Below are positions 1 through 20,058 of a stretch of 52,516 nt of DNA, in pieces. The stretch's first letter is position 1; each line of letters begins with the position of its first letter. The position numbers were made by a program, and so were the translations under genes. The notes under the pieces are model-generated. The model saw nothing but the letters and a program-made list of their open reading frames with translations, searched no databases and was not told where the DNA came from. The DNA comes from a bacterium (GTDB taxonomy: Bacteria > Desulfobacterota_D > UBA1144): NCBI GenBank assembly GCA_002708105.2, contig PAOQ02000009.1:15678-68193 (forward strand), given 5' to 3'.

Positions 1-82
1 TCAGTATCATCGGCCTCTGAGGACTTAACTTCCGGGTTCGGAATGGAACCGGGTGTACCCCCTCCAGTGTGGCCACCTAGAA
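1..82 (-). rRNA. rrf: 5S ribosomal RNA, 3' end cut by the window edge
   Basis: The reverse complement reads as the 5' and middle parts of a 5S rRNA. It contains the universally conserved stretch around 'CCGAACCCGGAAGTTAAG' followed by 'GCCGATGATACTG', and begins with a 'CTAGGTGGCC' 5' strand typical of helix I. The last ~35 bases lie outside the window. The exact 5' end (about 80-84) is inferred. The gene directly upstream on the same strand is rpoD, not a 23S rRNA gene, so this copy is unlinked from a conventional rRNA operon as far as the window shows. Confidence 0.93.
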
Positions 83-88
83 TCTAAA

Positions 89-116
89 ATGGTATACAAA
101 AAAAAATTGATGTCAA
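89..116 (-). promoter_or_regulatory. possible sigma-70 promoter for the 5S gene
   Basis: On the minus strand a perfect TTGACA (plus 111-116) lies upstream of the 5S. Candidate -10 boxes are TACCAT (89-94, spacer 16) or TATACC (91-96, spacer 14). Either would start transcription at about position 82-84, which is the expected 5' end of the 5S. The -10 match is mediocre and the spacer is short in one case, so this is an inference supported mainly by position. Confidence 0.4.
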
Positions 117-122
117 TATCAA
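98..122 (-). terminator. possible weak intrinsic terminator after rpoD
   Basis: Minus-strand RNA downstream of the rpoD stop codon contains a 5-bp stem TTGAT/ATCAA with a 6-base loop (plus 107-122), followed directly by nine U residues. The stem is short and AT-rich, so it is weak. It overlaps the TTGACA proposed as the -35 of the 5S gene, so the two readings compete or the element does both jobs. Confidence 0.35.
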
Positions 123-132
123 AATTAAGTTT

Positions 133-1449
133 TTAATCCAAATAACTTAATACAGGTAATTTTCTAAGTTTTTTTAGCTTTTTTAATGCTTTTAGTTCAA
201 TTTGCCTTATTCTTTCTCGGGTTACATTAAACTCTTTACCAATTTCCTCTAAAGTAAAGGCTTGATCCTCATCTATTCCAAATCTTTTCTTAATAACTTC
301 TTTTTCTCTTTCACTAAGAACTTTATGCAAAGAGTCATTAATCATATCTTTCAATTCTTTGCTCTTAAACGAATCATATTGACTAGGTGTACTATCATCA
401 CCTACTGTATCCATTAAAGTTTGAGAGGATTCATCATCATTAATAGGAGAATCCAAAGCTATAGGATCCTTTGTAACCCTAAGAATTTTTTCTACCTTAC
501 TTAGGCTATAACTTGATTCTATTGCTAATTCAGATGTTGTAGGCTCTCGTCCAAGTTTCTGGACAAGCACTCTAGAGGCTGATCCAATTCTATTAATTTG
601 TTCAGTCATGTGGACAGGTATTCTTATTATCCTTGCTTGATCAGCCAGGGCTCTTGTAATAGCTTGTCGAATCCACCATGTCGCATAAGTAGAAAATTTA
701 TACCCTCTTTCATACTCAAACTTTTCTACTGCTCTTATCAATCCAATATTTCCCTCTTGAATCAAATCAAGAAAAGGGAGCCCCTTATTTGTATATCTTC
801 TTGCAATGCTGACAACTAATCTTAGATTCGACTCAACTAATTTTTTTTTCGAAACAACATAATTGAATTTTGCTTTCTTTAATTCATCTAGAAGAACTTT
901 TCCAAAATTTCCATTTTTAAGAAAAGTTACAAGAGATTTTAAAAAATCCGAGGAAAATTCAATTTTTAGCAATTCATCTTTTAGTAACTTCTTATCTTTA
1001 TTCATTAACTTTTTCTTTAATAGTGCATTTTCTATCACTTCAAAGACATTTACAATTCTTCTATTTAAGCTTTCACTTTTTGCATTTGGCGAGTTTAATT
1101 CATCTAAATCATATTCATTTGACTCAGCATTATATGAATCAGGCAAATAGTTTTCAGATAGATACTTTAGAAGATTTAAATCTGAAACCAAGGAATTACA
1201 TATAAAATTTTTGGCTATACTTAATTTTGAAGCAACATCTGTTTCTTCAGACTTTTTTAGTAATGAATGTAATGCAATAGTATTAAGATAACTTTTAACT
1301 GGATCATCCGTGGATTCCAATACTTTAATTGGTGCAGGTATTTCAAATTCCTTTTTTATTTTCTTATCTAACTTAATTTTTGGTAATATTTTATTAACAA
1401 AATGGGGGAGGAAACTTATAGCATTAGGGAGAGAAGTTTTATTAATCAT
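133..1449 (-). CDS. rpoD: primary sigma factor RpoD (sigma-70)
   Basis: Housekeeping sigma factor that directs RNA polymerase to -35/-10 promoters. Region 1.2 is visible near residues 48-85 ([11 protein letters not shown]), region 2 near 205-275 with [23 protein letters not shown] and [13 protein letters not shown], and region 4 near 385-425 with [12 protein letters not shown]. At 438 aa it is much shorter than the E. coli protein (613 aa) because region 1.1 and the large non-conserved insert are absent or minimal. The track starts at a GTG (1455), but AAGG sits directly against that GTG and 5 nt before the ATG at 1449, so I prefer 1449. It is the last gene of the rpsU-dnaG-rpoD operon, about 100 bp after dnaG. 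Confidence 0.97.
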
Positions 1450-1550
1450 ATGCACCTTCAGTGATTAATATTAACCAATTAATGGGATAATGGCTAAAAG
1501 TAGATAAGAAATTCTTCCAAAAAAGTCAATTTTTGCCTTATTTAATAGGG

Positions 1551-3311
1551 TTATAATAAGGTTTTCTCCTTTTCTATCAGATTTTTTAGTTCGTTGAGTA
1601 AGGACTTCTCTTCATTTTCCAATAGATCAACGTTTTTACTTAATTTTAAATTAATTACACGTTTCAAATCTTTAATAGAATTAAGTTCTATTTTCTTAAT
1701 ACAATCTTCGATCAACTTCTTCCTTAAAATAGATTCCTTTGGAATTTCAAATGGTGTAAATACTAAATCTGATAACATGCTACTAACGCCATCATCAGTA
1801 ATGGCCCCAATCAGAGTTGATGCGTCTGCATTAAGATTAGTATGTAAGATTTCTATAATTTCGTTATGAAAGTCAGTTTTTAAAACTTCTAAACATTTTT
1901 TAATCAATTGTTCATCTCTAGAATCAATAAATTCAATAAAAACTTTAATTATTACATCCTGAGGGCTAAGTATCCTATAACCTAAAACTAAATCTTCAGA
2001 AGAATCATTTTTAATAAATTCTTTATTTATTATGCTCTCAACTTTTACTTTTGAAATAGAAAAGGATGAAGCAAACTTATTAATAAATTCGTCTCTTTGA
2101 ATATAATTTTGTACATACTTTATTTTACCTACAAAGTTATCCACCACCTCATCTATGCTTAATTCTTTTTCTATTAACTTATCCTTTAAATAATCCATAT
2201 ACTCTTCCATTATAAGATTAGACTTCTTAGCCTTTTCAATGAAGTGATCTATTGTGTTAGTTTGAAGATATGAACATGGGTCTTCACCATTATCTAATCG
2301 CAAAGAGAAGACCTCTATTCCAAACTGATATAATGGTTCAATATTCTTAAATGATGAATCAATACCAGCTTTATCAGAATCATAACAAAGTATAACTTTA
2401 TTGGTTATCTTTTTAATTTCATTTGCATGATCTAAAGTTAATGCTGTTCCCATAGTTGCAACTACGTTATATAGACCACGCTTATTCATCATTAAGACAT
2501 CTGTATATCCCTCTACTATAAAAATATATTTTGGTTTTCTTCCGTTTAGCTTATTAAAATTATTTAATCCATATAGAATTTTACGCTTAGAGAAAATTTC
2601 TGATTCCTTTGAATTAATATATTTAGCTTTATCGTCACCAATCGTTCTACCAGCAAAAGCAAGGATATTTCCCTGCCTATTTTTTATAGGAAAAATTATT
2701 CTATTACGAAAAAAATCGTAAAAGTCCTTTTTGTTATCTTTGAGACTAATTAAACCAAGGGACAAAGCTATTTCTTTTAGCTCTTCCTTTTCCCCTATGG
2801 TTGAAGAGATTGTGTTCCAGCTATCGGGTGCAAATCCTAATGAGTTTTCTTGAATATCTTCTTTATCAAAGCCCCTTTCTTGGAGATATTTAATTGGCTT
2901 TGAATTTCTTTCATTATCAAGCAGGAATCTAGAAAAAAATTGAGAAATTTTATTGTTAAAATCATACATCTTTTTATTTAAAGTTTTATCTTTAACTGGT
3001 ACATAAGTATTTCTTGGAATTTTTATATTGAAAAAAATAGATAGTTCTTCTAAAGTTTCAGGATAAGTCAGGTTTTTGAATTCTTTTATAAATTGAATCA
3101 AATTCCCGCCTGCCTTGCAAACAAAGCAATGATACAAGCCCTTATCGTCACTTACTTGCATTGATGGAGTTTTGTCGTCATGAAAAGGACATAAAACTTT
3201 ATATCCACTTCCAGACTTTTTACATTCTGACCAGTTCTTATCTATATATTCTTTTAAGGATGTCTTACTTAGGATGTCGTCTTTGTCTGAGTATTTTTCA
3301 TATGATGACAT
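1551..3311 (-). CDS. dnaG: DNA primase DnaG
   Basis: Synthesises RNA primers for the replication fork, acting with the DnaB helicase. The N-terminal CHC2 zinc-binding domain is intact with C41, H44, C62 and C65 (CPFHDDKTPS ... HCFVCKAGG). The catalytic core carries FFRNRIIFPI and the Toprim signatures IFIVEGYTDVLMM and VILCYDSDKAG. The C-terminal ~150 residues are a divergent helicase-interaction domain. Length (586 aa) is normal for the family. It starts 9 bp after the rpsU stop, so it is co-transcribed in the classic macromolecular synthesis operon. Confidence 0.97.
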   Translation of the reverse strand: MSSYEKYSDKDDILSKTSLKEYIDKNWSECKKSGSGYKVLCPFHDDKTPSMQVSDDKGLYHCFVCKAGGNLIQFIKEFKNLTYPETLEELSIFFNIKIPRNTYVPVKDKTLNKKMYDFNNKISQFFSRFLLDNERNSKPIKYLQERGFDKEDIQENSLGFAPDSWNTISSTIGEKEELKEIALSLGLISLKDNKKDFYDFFRNRIIFPIKNRQGNILAFAGRTIGDDKAKYINSKESEIFSKRKILYGLNNFNKLNGRKPKYIFIVEGYTDVLMMNKRGLYNVVATMGTALTLDHANEIKKITNKVILCYDSDKAGIDSSFKNIEPLYQFGIEVFSLRLDNGEDPCSYLQTNTIDHFIEKAKKSNLIMEEYMDYLKDKLIEKELSIDEVVDNFVGKIKYVQNYIQRDEFINKFASSFSISKVKVESIINKEFIKNDSSEDLVLGYRILSPQDVIIKVFIEFIDSRDEQLIKKCLEVLKTDFHNEIIEILHTNLNADASTLIGAITDDGVSSMLSDLVFTPFEIPKESILRKKLIEDCIKKIELNSIKDLKRVINLKLSKNVDLLENEEKSLLNELKNLIEKEKTLL

Positions 3312-3320
3312 TTAATTACA

Positions 3321-3518
3321 TTAATATCTTGGTTTTCTAACTTTTTTATTCATCCTTTTTTTAGCGGCAAAGAGCTTCTTTTTTTTCGTTTCGCTAGGTT
3401 TTTCAAAATACTCTTTTTTCCTAGCATCAGTCAAAATACCACCCTTTTCAACTTGCCTCTTGAATCTTCTTAAAGCATTTTCTAAATTTTCATTACTTCC
3501 AACATATATTCCTGGCAT
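3321..3518 (-). CDS. rpsU: 30S ribosomal protein bS21
   Basis: Small basic ribosomal protein of the 30S subunit, involved in translation initiation. It begins MPGIYVGSNENLENALRRFK, matching the bS21 N-terminus, and ends in a Lys/Arg-rich tail (KKRMNKKVRKPRY). The track begins at an upstream TTG (3530), but the family start and the ribosome binding site GGAG 7 nt upstream both point to the ATG at 3518, giving 65 aa. First gene of the rpsU-dnaG-rpoD operon. Confidence 0.95.
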   Translation of the reverse strand: MPGIYVGSNENLENALRRFKRQVEKGGILTDARKKEYFEKPSETKKKKLFAAKKRMNKKVRKPRY

Positions 3519-3542
3519 ACAAATCTCCAATAAGTTAAAAAA

Positions 3543-10819: not shown

Positions 10820-11279
10820 GCCTATAAGTAAGCATGGGGTCTTAATAAACCTCTTAAATAAAGGGGTACTAATAATAGGTAGAAGTGGTTTAGGAAAAAG
10901 TGAGTGTGCGGTCGAACTTTTATATAAAGGTGCTTTCCTTGTAGCAGACGATGTAGTATTAATTCAAAATATTGAAAATAAGCTTATTGGTGAGTCTCCC
11001 GAAACAATAAGGAATTTAATAGAAATCCGTGGAATTGGAATTATCAATGTAAAAGATATATTTGGGGAAGAATCTATTATAAAAAGAAGTAGTATAGATC
11101 TTATGATTGAACTAGTAGATTTTGATAAAGATTATAGCTACGAAAGACTAGGATATGATAAAAGCTATATTGAAATTCTTAATTGTAAAATACCTCATAT
11201 GAAGATACCAGTAAGTCCAGGAAGGAATTTATCGACTTTGATATCAATTGCGGTAAAGAAGACAATTTTAGAAAGTTAA
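10809..11279 (+). CDS. hprK: HPr kinase/phosphorylase, catalytic domain only
   Basis: Phosphorylates (or dephosphorylates) a serine on HPr-like PTS carriers. Residues 8-35 (HGVLINLLNKGVLIIGRSGL) lead into the P-loop GRSGLGKS at 24-31. Next come the acidic active-site region FLVADDVV, the signature EIRGIGIINVKDIFGE, and a C-terminal loop IPVSPGRNLSTL. All match the kinase domain of full-length HprK. At 156 aa the ~130-residue N-terminal domain is missing, as in the short alphaproteobacterial forms, although the motif wording resembles the long forms. It overlaps ptsN by 11 bp. No ptsH is visible, so its substrate must be encoded elsewhere. Confidence 0.88.
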   Translation: MNNKPISKHGVLINLLNKGVLIIGRSGLGKSECAVELLYKGAFLVADDVVLIQNIENKLIGESPETIRNLIEIRGIGIINVKDIFGEESIIKRSSIDLMIELVDFDKDYSYERLGYDKSYIEILNCKIPHMKIPVSPGRNLSTLISIAVKKTILES

Positions 11280-17618: not shown

Positions 17619-17655
17619 CGAATAGATTTTTATACTATATGCAGACAAGTAAATG

Positions 17656-20058
17656 TCAAGATAGGTTCAAAGGCTTCTCTGTTTCTGAAACCTCAACACC
17701 CAAAGGCATATCTGATAATACTGTATCTTTTAAAACTGCTTCTTCAGAGATAATGGCATGAGGTATAACATCATCCATATGACTTACAGAAACAATATTT
17801 ACATCCTTGAGAACCTCTTTAGGAATATCAGTTAAATCCTTTTCATTCTCTTTAGGAATTAATACAGTCTTTACTCCGCCTCTATGTGCTGCTAGAATTT
17901 TCTCCTTTAAACCACCTATAGGTAAAACCCTTCCTCTGAGGGTTATTTCACCAGTCATAGCTAGATCTCTTCTAACTTGCTTTTGAATTAAACCTGAAAG
18001 AATTGCTGTTGCCATGGCAATACCTGCCGATGGTCCATCCTTAGGTTGAGCCCCTTCAGGAACGTGAACATGTATATCAATTTTTTGATAGAAATTCCTA
18101 TCAAGTCCTAGTCTATGACCTCTAGAGCGAACATAACTCATTGCTGCTCTAGTTGACTCTTGCATAACTTCTCCTAGCTTTCCTGTAACAGTAAAATTAC
18201 CCTTACCAGGCACAATTGTGACCTCAATATTTAATAGCTCACCACCAACCTCTGTCCAAGCCAGACCAGTTGACATTCCTATTTGATCGCTGTCCTCTAT
18301 TTCTCCATGTTTAAACTTTGGAGACCCTAAAAGCTTTTGAACTACTTTTGGGGTTATATTTAATGAATAATCCTTACCATTTGTAACAACTTCCTTAGCT
18401 GTCTTTCTGCAAAGGGTTCCAAACTCTCTCTCAAGAGTTCTTACACCCGCCTCTCGAGTGTATCTCTGAATTGTGAAATTAACAGCCTTATCTGAAAATT
18501 TCACGTTGGAATCTTTGAGGCCATTATTCTCAAGTTGCTTGGGAATTAAATACTTTTTAGCAATTTTATTCTTTTCTAATTCTGTATAACCTGAGAGCTT
18601 TATGATTTCCATTCTATCTTGAAGAGCCCATGGAATCGTATGAAGAACGTTAGCAGTAGTTATAAATAAAACCTGTGATAAATCATAGTCAACTTCTAAA
18701 TAATGATCATTAAAAGTTGAATTTTGCTCAGGATCTAAAGCCTCAAGAAGAGCTGATGCAGGATCACCTCTAAAATCAGTTCCTACCTTATCTATTTCAT
18801 CAAGAAGGAAAACAGGGTTTTTTGACCCAGCTTTTTTCATCCCTTGAATAATTTTACCTGGCAAAGCTCCAATATAAGTTCTTCTGTGCCCTCTTATCTC
18901 AGCTTCATCTCTTACCCCACCTAAGGAAATTCTTACAAACTTTCTACCCATTGACCTGGCTACGGATTTAGCTAAAGAAGTTTTACCTACTCCTGGCGGT
19001 CCAACTAAGCACAAAATTGGTCCTTTTAATTTTTCAGTTAATGTTCTTACGGCTAAGAACTCAGTAATTCTTTCCTTCGGTTTTTCAAGACCGAAATGAT
19101 CTTCATCCAAGATTTCTTGTGCTTTTTCTAATGAAACTTCGTCTTCTGTTAAATCCGAGTTCCAAGGCAAGCTAACAAGCCAATCAATATAATTTCTAAC
19201 TACAGTTGCTTCGGCAGACATAGAAGACATACCCTTTAACTTTCTGATTTCTTTTTCAATTCTTTTCTTTATTTCCTCAGGAATGTCTTTAGTTTTTAAA
19301 GCCTCTTCAAATTCAATTATTTCGCTTTTCAAATCATCTTTATCTCCAAGCTCGCTTTGAATTGCCTTCATTTGTTCTGTTAAATAATATTCCTTTTGAG
19401 CCTTTTCCATTTGCTTCTTGACTCTATTTCTAATTTTCTTTTCAACTTGCAGAATTTCTAATTCTGATTGAATCTTTTCAAAAAGCATTTCAAGTCTTTT
19501 CGAACAATCTAAACACTCTAGAACTTCCTGTTTATCAGAAAGTTTAAACGTTAAATGAGATGCTATAGTATCAGATAACTTGCTTGCATCTTCGATAGCA
19601 GAAATTGTAACTAAAGTTTCAGTTGGAACCTTCTTGTTTAATTTTGTATAATCCTCAAAAGCTTCAATCAAACTTCTCATAATAGCATTTGTCTCAACAT
19701 CTGATTGATTATCTTCAACTAAATCCTCAACTTCTACATTGAAGAATTTATTTTCATCATCGAACCCTAATAGTTTTGCTCTGCTGACGCCCTCAACTAA
19801 TATTTTTACTGTTCCATCAGGAAGTCTTAACATTTGAACAATTGTTCCAATTGTTCCGATGTTATATATATCTTCAGGTCCTGGGTCATTTGTTTTTGCA
19901 TCAATCTGTGCCGAAAGTAAAATTTTCTTATCTGTCTTCATTGCTTCTTCTAAAGCTCTAATAGACTTTTCTCTTCCAACAAACAATGGGGCTACCATGT
20001 GGGGGAAAATTACTACATCTCTTAAAGGCAGTAATGGAAGTTTATATTTTGTACTCAT
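17656..20058 (-). CDS. lon: ATP-dependent protease Lon (La)
   Basis: Cytoplasmic AAA+ serine protease degrading misfolded and regulatory proteins. The N-terminal LON domain begins [15 protein letters not shown]. The AAA+ module has the Walker [14 protein letters not shown], Walker [11 protein letters not shown] and the R-rich [20 protein letters not shown]. The protease domain has the catalytic Ser in [14 protein letters not shown] and the downstream Lys region [17 protein letters not shown]. 800 aa is full length. A strong RBS (CGGAGG, 5 nt spacer) precedes the ATG. It lies ~117 bp downstream of clpX, in the common tig-clpP-clpX-lon order. Confidence 0.98.

Follow-up and report, generated by a model that had tools for sequence, protein, structure and literature searches.

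In the SAR11 bacterium 'Candidatus Pelagibacter ubique' HTCC1062, the sole 5S rRNA gene and the 23S gene flank a 48-kb hypervariable island made up mainly of surface-polysaccharide genes, and the separation of the single 5S gene from 23S is conserved in wild populations (PMC2217521). Leptospira interrogans also has a single 5S gene that is physically separate from 16S and 23S, as recounted from earlier work in the portion of PMC3037291 that deals with these genes. Unlinked 16S–23S operons have been defined by a 16S–23S spacer of over 1500 bp, and unlinking has been tied to symbionts (PMC7761764). In Desulfallas gibsoniae, a stand-alone, oversized 5S gene is a displaced additional copy whose control elements are accidental (PMC7812874). 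For Candidatus Dadabacteria, a paper on genome streamlining refers to rRNA solely in connection with 16S phylogeny (PMC8115339), and the literature that we searched holds no description of a Dadabacteria 5S gene or rRNA operon or of the gene order rpoD-5S-purN, although mention elsewhere is possible. Here we show that, in the genomes analysed, the sole 5S gene of Dadabacteria has left the rRNA operon and has a fixed place between rpoD and purN.

A 5S rRNA gene between rpoD and purN

The window, by which we mean the whole 52,516-nucleotide stretch of DNA analysed (G000:C2:15678-68193), begins one base past an N at C2:15677, and the scaffold continues beyond it. The 5′ two thirds of a 5S gene occupy positions 1–80, and the remaining 37 bases at its 3′ end lie to the left of the window. 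The genes at this end are as follows.

Window 1-80, minus strand: 5′ part of the 5S rRNA gene (Rfam RF00001, 55.5 bits, truncated at the 3′ end by the window)
C2:15641-15757, minus strand: full 5S gene (Rfam RF00001, 89.4 bits, model positions 1-120)
Window 133-1455, minus strand: rpoD, primary sigma factor, stop codon at 133-135 (ORF; Pfam PF04542, PF04539 and PF04545, sigma-70 regions 2, 3 and 4)
Window 1551-3311, minus strand: dnaG, primase (ORF, Pfam)
Window 3321-3530, minus strand: rpsU, ribosomal protein S21 (ORF, Pfam PF01165)
C2:15631-15026, minus strand: purN, 9 nt 3′ of 5S
Beyond purN, opposite orientation: aroF, identified by inspection of the sequence

The minus-strand order is thus rpsU, dnaG, rpoD, 52 nt, 5S, 9 nt, purN. 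The first-pass annotation had placed a 5S gene directly behind rpoD, on the strand of rpsU-dnaG-rpoD and about 50 bp from the rpoD stop codon, and the ORF, Pfam and Rfam evidence agrees with it on each point. The match covers the full length of the RF00001 model and, at 89.4 bits, exceeds the gathering score of 38. Its helices are conserved as paired, with compensatory changes in 12 of the 31 predicted pairs among 30 aligned relatives, and its single N falls in a variable helix (alignment column 81); a thermodynamic fold of 5S plus its tail was uninformative (z = -0.5).

The metagenome-assembled genome (MAG) that carries the window (G000; 908,595 bases in 24 contigs, 88% complete) has one 5S locus by Rfam search. 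We looked for 16S and 23S genes to the left, as had been suggested, and neither was detectable in a search of this 88% complete genome. The contig ends 15.6 kb past 5S, short of the position that 16S occupies in relatives, which is a likely reason for its absence, and the linkage of 5S was therefore judged in the relatives.

Copy number and gene order across the class

The window's group comprises 58 genomes in eight families, which we take as the class Candidatus Dadabacteria, a class within Thermodesulfobacteriota in the NCBI taxonomy. Dadabacteria are known mostly as free-living organisms. There are several consistent features, with the proviso that the relatives are non-independent samples in all of these conservation counts. 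First, Rfam scans find 5S in 53 of the 58 genomes and in all 43 of the good ones, and 52 of the 53 with any match have a single locus, G000 among them (a second match in G002 belongs to the one locus, which is interrupted where a contig stops). Second, 5S is downstream of rpoD and on the same strand in 53 of 53 genomes, spanning six families. Third, purN is the next gene after 5S in 52 of these 53, the exception being G010, where a lysA-like gene takes its place. Fourth, the spacing between rpoD and 5S varies by family. The two are direct neighbors 32–52 nt apart in families f1, f5 and f7. In f4 and in two genomes of f2 they are separated by 146–401 nt, and in the remaining f2 and all f8 genomes by about 1 kb; the gap between 5S and purN in f1 is 9–11 nt. 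The ~1-kb insert, read in detail in G009 and G010 (f2) and G035 (f8), is an opposite-strand gene of the integrase family.

L085:2687-3565, L090:2709-3587 and L089:2707-3573, divergent from 5S: tyrosine-recombinase (Phage_integrase) gene, ~290 aa, between rpoD and 5S in f2 and f8; possibly a core protein of XerC/D type or the remnant of a mobile element

G010 alone has a second, separate 5S copy (L065:2501-2617, G010:C85), which is without TTGACA and precedes, by ~290 nt, another sigma-70-like gene broken into two frames; the contig could be a contaminant.

A link between unlinked rRNA genes and reduced lineages had been raised for this locus, and it does not apply. The rpoD-linked 5S gene is present also in relatives with genomes of 2–4 Mb, and because these share the trait, genome reduction does not account for the detachment of 5S in the Dadabacteria lineage.

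As a control, we analysed 31 5S loci in about two dozen genomes from other phyla, 27 of them with enough upstream sequence. In 24 of these 27 readable loci the end of a 23S gene lies 44–332 nt upstream of 5S, in line with the initial statement that 5S usually follows 23S, and none of the 27 has rpoD upstream. No 23S gene was present within 3.5 kb upstream at the other three (G073 and both loci of G079); these (L132, L153 and L157) are further unlinked 5S genes with other neighbors. The rpoD-5S arrangement is characteristic of the class within the sample reached, whose genomes of other phyla were taken without a focus on the nearest sister groups.

Predicted promoter and 3′ end of the 5S gene

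Two promoter-like elements lie in the spacer between rpoD and 5S.

Window 111-116 (read 116 to 111), minus strand: −35 element TTGACA, conserved in relatives
Window 89-94 (read 94 to 89), minus strand: −10-like element TACCAT after a 16-nt spacer; relatives have TAAGAT, TAATTT or TAAATT there

The annotation had read this TTGACA and a weak −10 as placing the transcription start at the mature 5S end, and although TACCAT is indeed weak, conservation across the class lends weight to that proposal. Of 52 rpoD-linked loci, 50 have an exact TTGACA and two have TTGACT, whereas shuffled upstream regions contain it in 0.4 loci on average and three at most. It starts 36–41 nt before 5S, a nearly fixed place, and TAnnnT follows 16 nt past it in 51 of the 52 loci and 17 nt past it in G016. 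Most columns around TTGACA carry little information, and the −35 element is the best conserved feature of the spacer in six families. The elements thus have the −35/−10 form, the 16–18 nt spacing and the conservation in relatives that characterize a sigma-70 promoter. Scanning single sequences is no better than chance for the G000 window (two matches with 1.3 expected), and an 800-base scan gave three matches with 3.1 expected; the TTGACA of G000 is significant only because it is conserved across relatives. In genus g2 (G049–G052) and in f5 the TGA stop codon of rpoD lies inside the TTGACA, such that coding sequence and promoter overlap. A dedicated 5S promoter is a well supported prediction, and transcripts from it would begin only a few bases from the mature 5S end.

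The same architecture is found at the other rRNA genes. In 14 relatives TTGACA is present 118–144 nt upstream of 16S, mostly with a 16-nt spacer and TAnnnT, and the separate 23S gene of f5 has a TTGACA-N16-TAnnnT of its own; in f5, a TTGACA promoter thus precedes 16S and 23S separately. By inspection, the G016 16S and 23S leaders each contain a TTCTTTGAnAACTGAAT stretch, which resembles a boxA antitermination site. The 5S unit has no room for boxA and, at ~120 nt, should presumably not need one.

A further match to TTGACA-N16-TANNNT, sharing the architecture of the 5S and 16S promoters, is at window 17632-17659 (minus strand), directly upstream of a tRNA-Val/tRNA-Asp pair (17618-17465).

At the other end of the gene, a T-rich tail follows 5S in all families. 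The 12 nt after 5S are 54–86% T (family means) compared with 23–32% in the loci, and f8 typically has TTCTTTTTTTTT directly after the 5S terminal helix. A scan of G000 alone for hairpin terminators found none between rpoD and 5S or after 5S. The tail suggests termination at the 5S end, an idea that draws on base composition, the 5S terminal helix being a multiloop stem and not a classic terminator hairpin. With purN only 9–11 nt after 5S in f1, its transcript has to originate within or ahead of 5S unless it is almost leaderless, and its expression by read-through or from an internal start is possible.

Transcription of the 5S gene

We propose that 5S is probably a stand-alone transcription unit, located after rpsU-dnaG-rpoD and before purN, with its own rRNA-type promoter and a U-rich end. 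RNA polymerase carrying sigma-70 would recognize TTGACA, the 16-nt spacer and TAnnnT and start exactly at the mature 5S 5′ end or slightly upstream, by a few bases, so that little 5′ processing would be needed. Transcription would then end or attenuate in the U-rich stretch directly past the 5S terminal helix. In the streamlined marine family to which the window belongs, where packing is tight, read-through from rpoD to 5S and from 5S to purN probably also occurs, in which case 5S would be released by processing at its ends and purN translated from a leader of ~10 nt. The like promoter architecture of 5S and 16S could keep the rRNAs in near equal amounts without a common transcript.

The first-pass annotation had left open whether 5S is transcribed independently or together with rpoD. 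It is conceivable that 5S comes mainly from an rpsU-dnaG-rpoD-5S-purN transcript from which RNases cut it, TTGACA being secondary. The genes share a strand, the f1 gaps of 32–52 nt leave no space for a terminator, purN is 9–11 nt behind, and no terminator was found between rpoD and 5S in G000. Nonetheless, we consider this unlikely as the main source of 5S. First, transcription of a sigma-factor operon would presumably hardly supply rRNA amounts. Second, no feature of the spacer is better conserved over six families than the −35 element. Third, in f2 and f8, two families with larger genomes, the loci read in detail keep the same 5S promoter despite the opposite-strand integrase gene between rpoD and 5S, which blocks simple co-transcription with rpoD and calls for a promoter of its own. 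The independent part of the original pair of options is thus the better supported, and in the compact families, which have no room for a terminator, some 5S is probably also made by read-through from rpoD.

The rpoD-5S-purN order might itself be regulatory, with formation of the 5S 3′ end setting the amount of purN. Here too 5S would come from its own promoter, and the purN message of the marine family would start inside or right behind 5S. We regard this as improbable; if true, a single short unit would tie together ribosome assembly, the main sigma factor and purine supply.

Locations of the 16S and 23S genes

16S was detected in 33 genomes of the group and, where one contig carries both genes, it lies 23–195 kb from 5S and on the same strand every time (distances computed by hand). 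It is 23–24.5 kb downstream of 5S in G001 (24.5 kb), G002, G050, G051, G053 and G035 (23 kb), and about 44–195 kb from 5S in G031 (assuming a circle), G019, G025, G026, G032 and G016. In most genomes 23S adjoins 16S and comes after it, with tRNA-Ile and tRNA-Ala genes between the two in G001. Family f5 differs in that all three genes are apart. The single contig of G016 (1,162,547 bases) has 5S at C1:1144779, 16S at C1:948446 (minus strand) and 23S at C1:631119 (plus strand; loci L078, L104 and L055), and G015 agrees, with 16S and 23S on different contigs.

In f1, ~24 kb of core genes lie between 5S and 16S; their order is the same in G001, G002 and G051, and G000 shares it as far as its contig reaches. 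We considered whether the similar 5S–16S distances of G001 and G035 reflect conserved synteny and rejected this, as only purN and aroF were found in common among the genes after 5S in f1 and f8; the likeness is probably coincidence. Directly upstream of the G001 16S gene (L103, G001:C3, 16S at 11037) and divergent from it are parA- and parB-like genes, which points to a location of the rRNA genes close to the origin of replication.

No 16S-23S-5S operon was found in any genome of the group in the scans made (23S was searched in two genome subsets), and whole-genome covariance scans found no 5S behind 23S in the relatives with a complete 23S gene and downstream flank. Other genes separate the two in the relatives, and there is no second, operon-linked 5S gene, the extra copy in G010 being beside another sigma-factor gene. 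It could be supposed that the rpoD-linked gene is a spare copy or pseudogene and that a working copy is behind 23S in an unassembled part of the genome, as the lack of 16S and 23S in the G000 MAG hides its own operon from view. This is very unlikely, however, being contradicted by those relatives in which the region behind 23S is complete and by the compensatory base pairs that the rpoD-linked gene retains, and the concern that a complete operon elsewhere would make this copy superfluous is answered in the same way. Chance joining of a 5S fragment to rpoD during assembly or binning, brought to mind by the N inside the G000 gene and by G002, in which a contig break falls in the same gene and the order spans two abutting contigs, is virtually untenable, as the order recurs in 52 other assemblies including the single-contig genomes G016 and G031, which refutes a misassembly at window positions 80–133.

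Comparison with other unlinked rRNA genes

Unlinked 5S genes are known already; what appears undescribed is that 5S has a fixed position and this promoter throughout a class, whatever the genome size. 5S is uncoupled from 23S over the whole class, in large and small genomes, with a promoter resembling that of 16S, and the class thus offers a way to test how 5S is kept in balance with 16S and 23S without a common transcript. The rpoD-5S-purN junction is also a candidate marker for the class.

The closest parallel is SAR11, which shares with these bacteria a streamlined marine planktonic life and a single 5S gene apart from 23S. It differs in three respects: the Dadabacteria 5S gene is upstream of 16S and joined to rpoD and purN; the f1 interval between 5S and 16S is ~24 kb of core genes in conserved order, unlike the SAR11 island; and large-genome relatives of the window share the trait. 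Leptospira resembles f5 (G016), with all three rRNA genes apart, but belongs to another phylum, and the passage of PMC3037291 on its rRNA genes does not report an rpoD-5S-purN placement there. As in unlinked 16S–23S operons, the rRNA genes of Dadabacteria would not be in one transcript, but the spacer definition (PMC7761764) ignores 5S, and most Dadabacteria, with 16S and 23S linked, would score as normal; surveys that score linkage on 16S and 23S only overlook such 5S genes. Unlike the unlinking tied to symbionts (PMC7761764), that of 5S is found here in a mostly free-living class. Finally, D. gibsoniae likewise has a 5S gene outside any rRNA operon, but the Dadabacteria gene is of normal size, is the only copy and has a conserved promoter.
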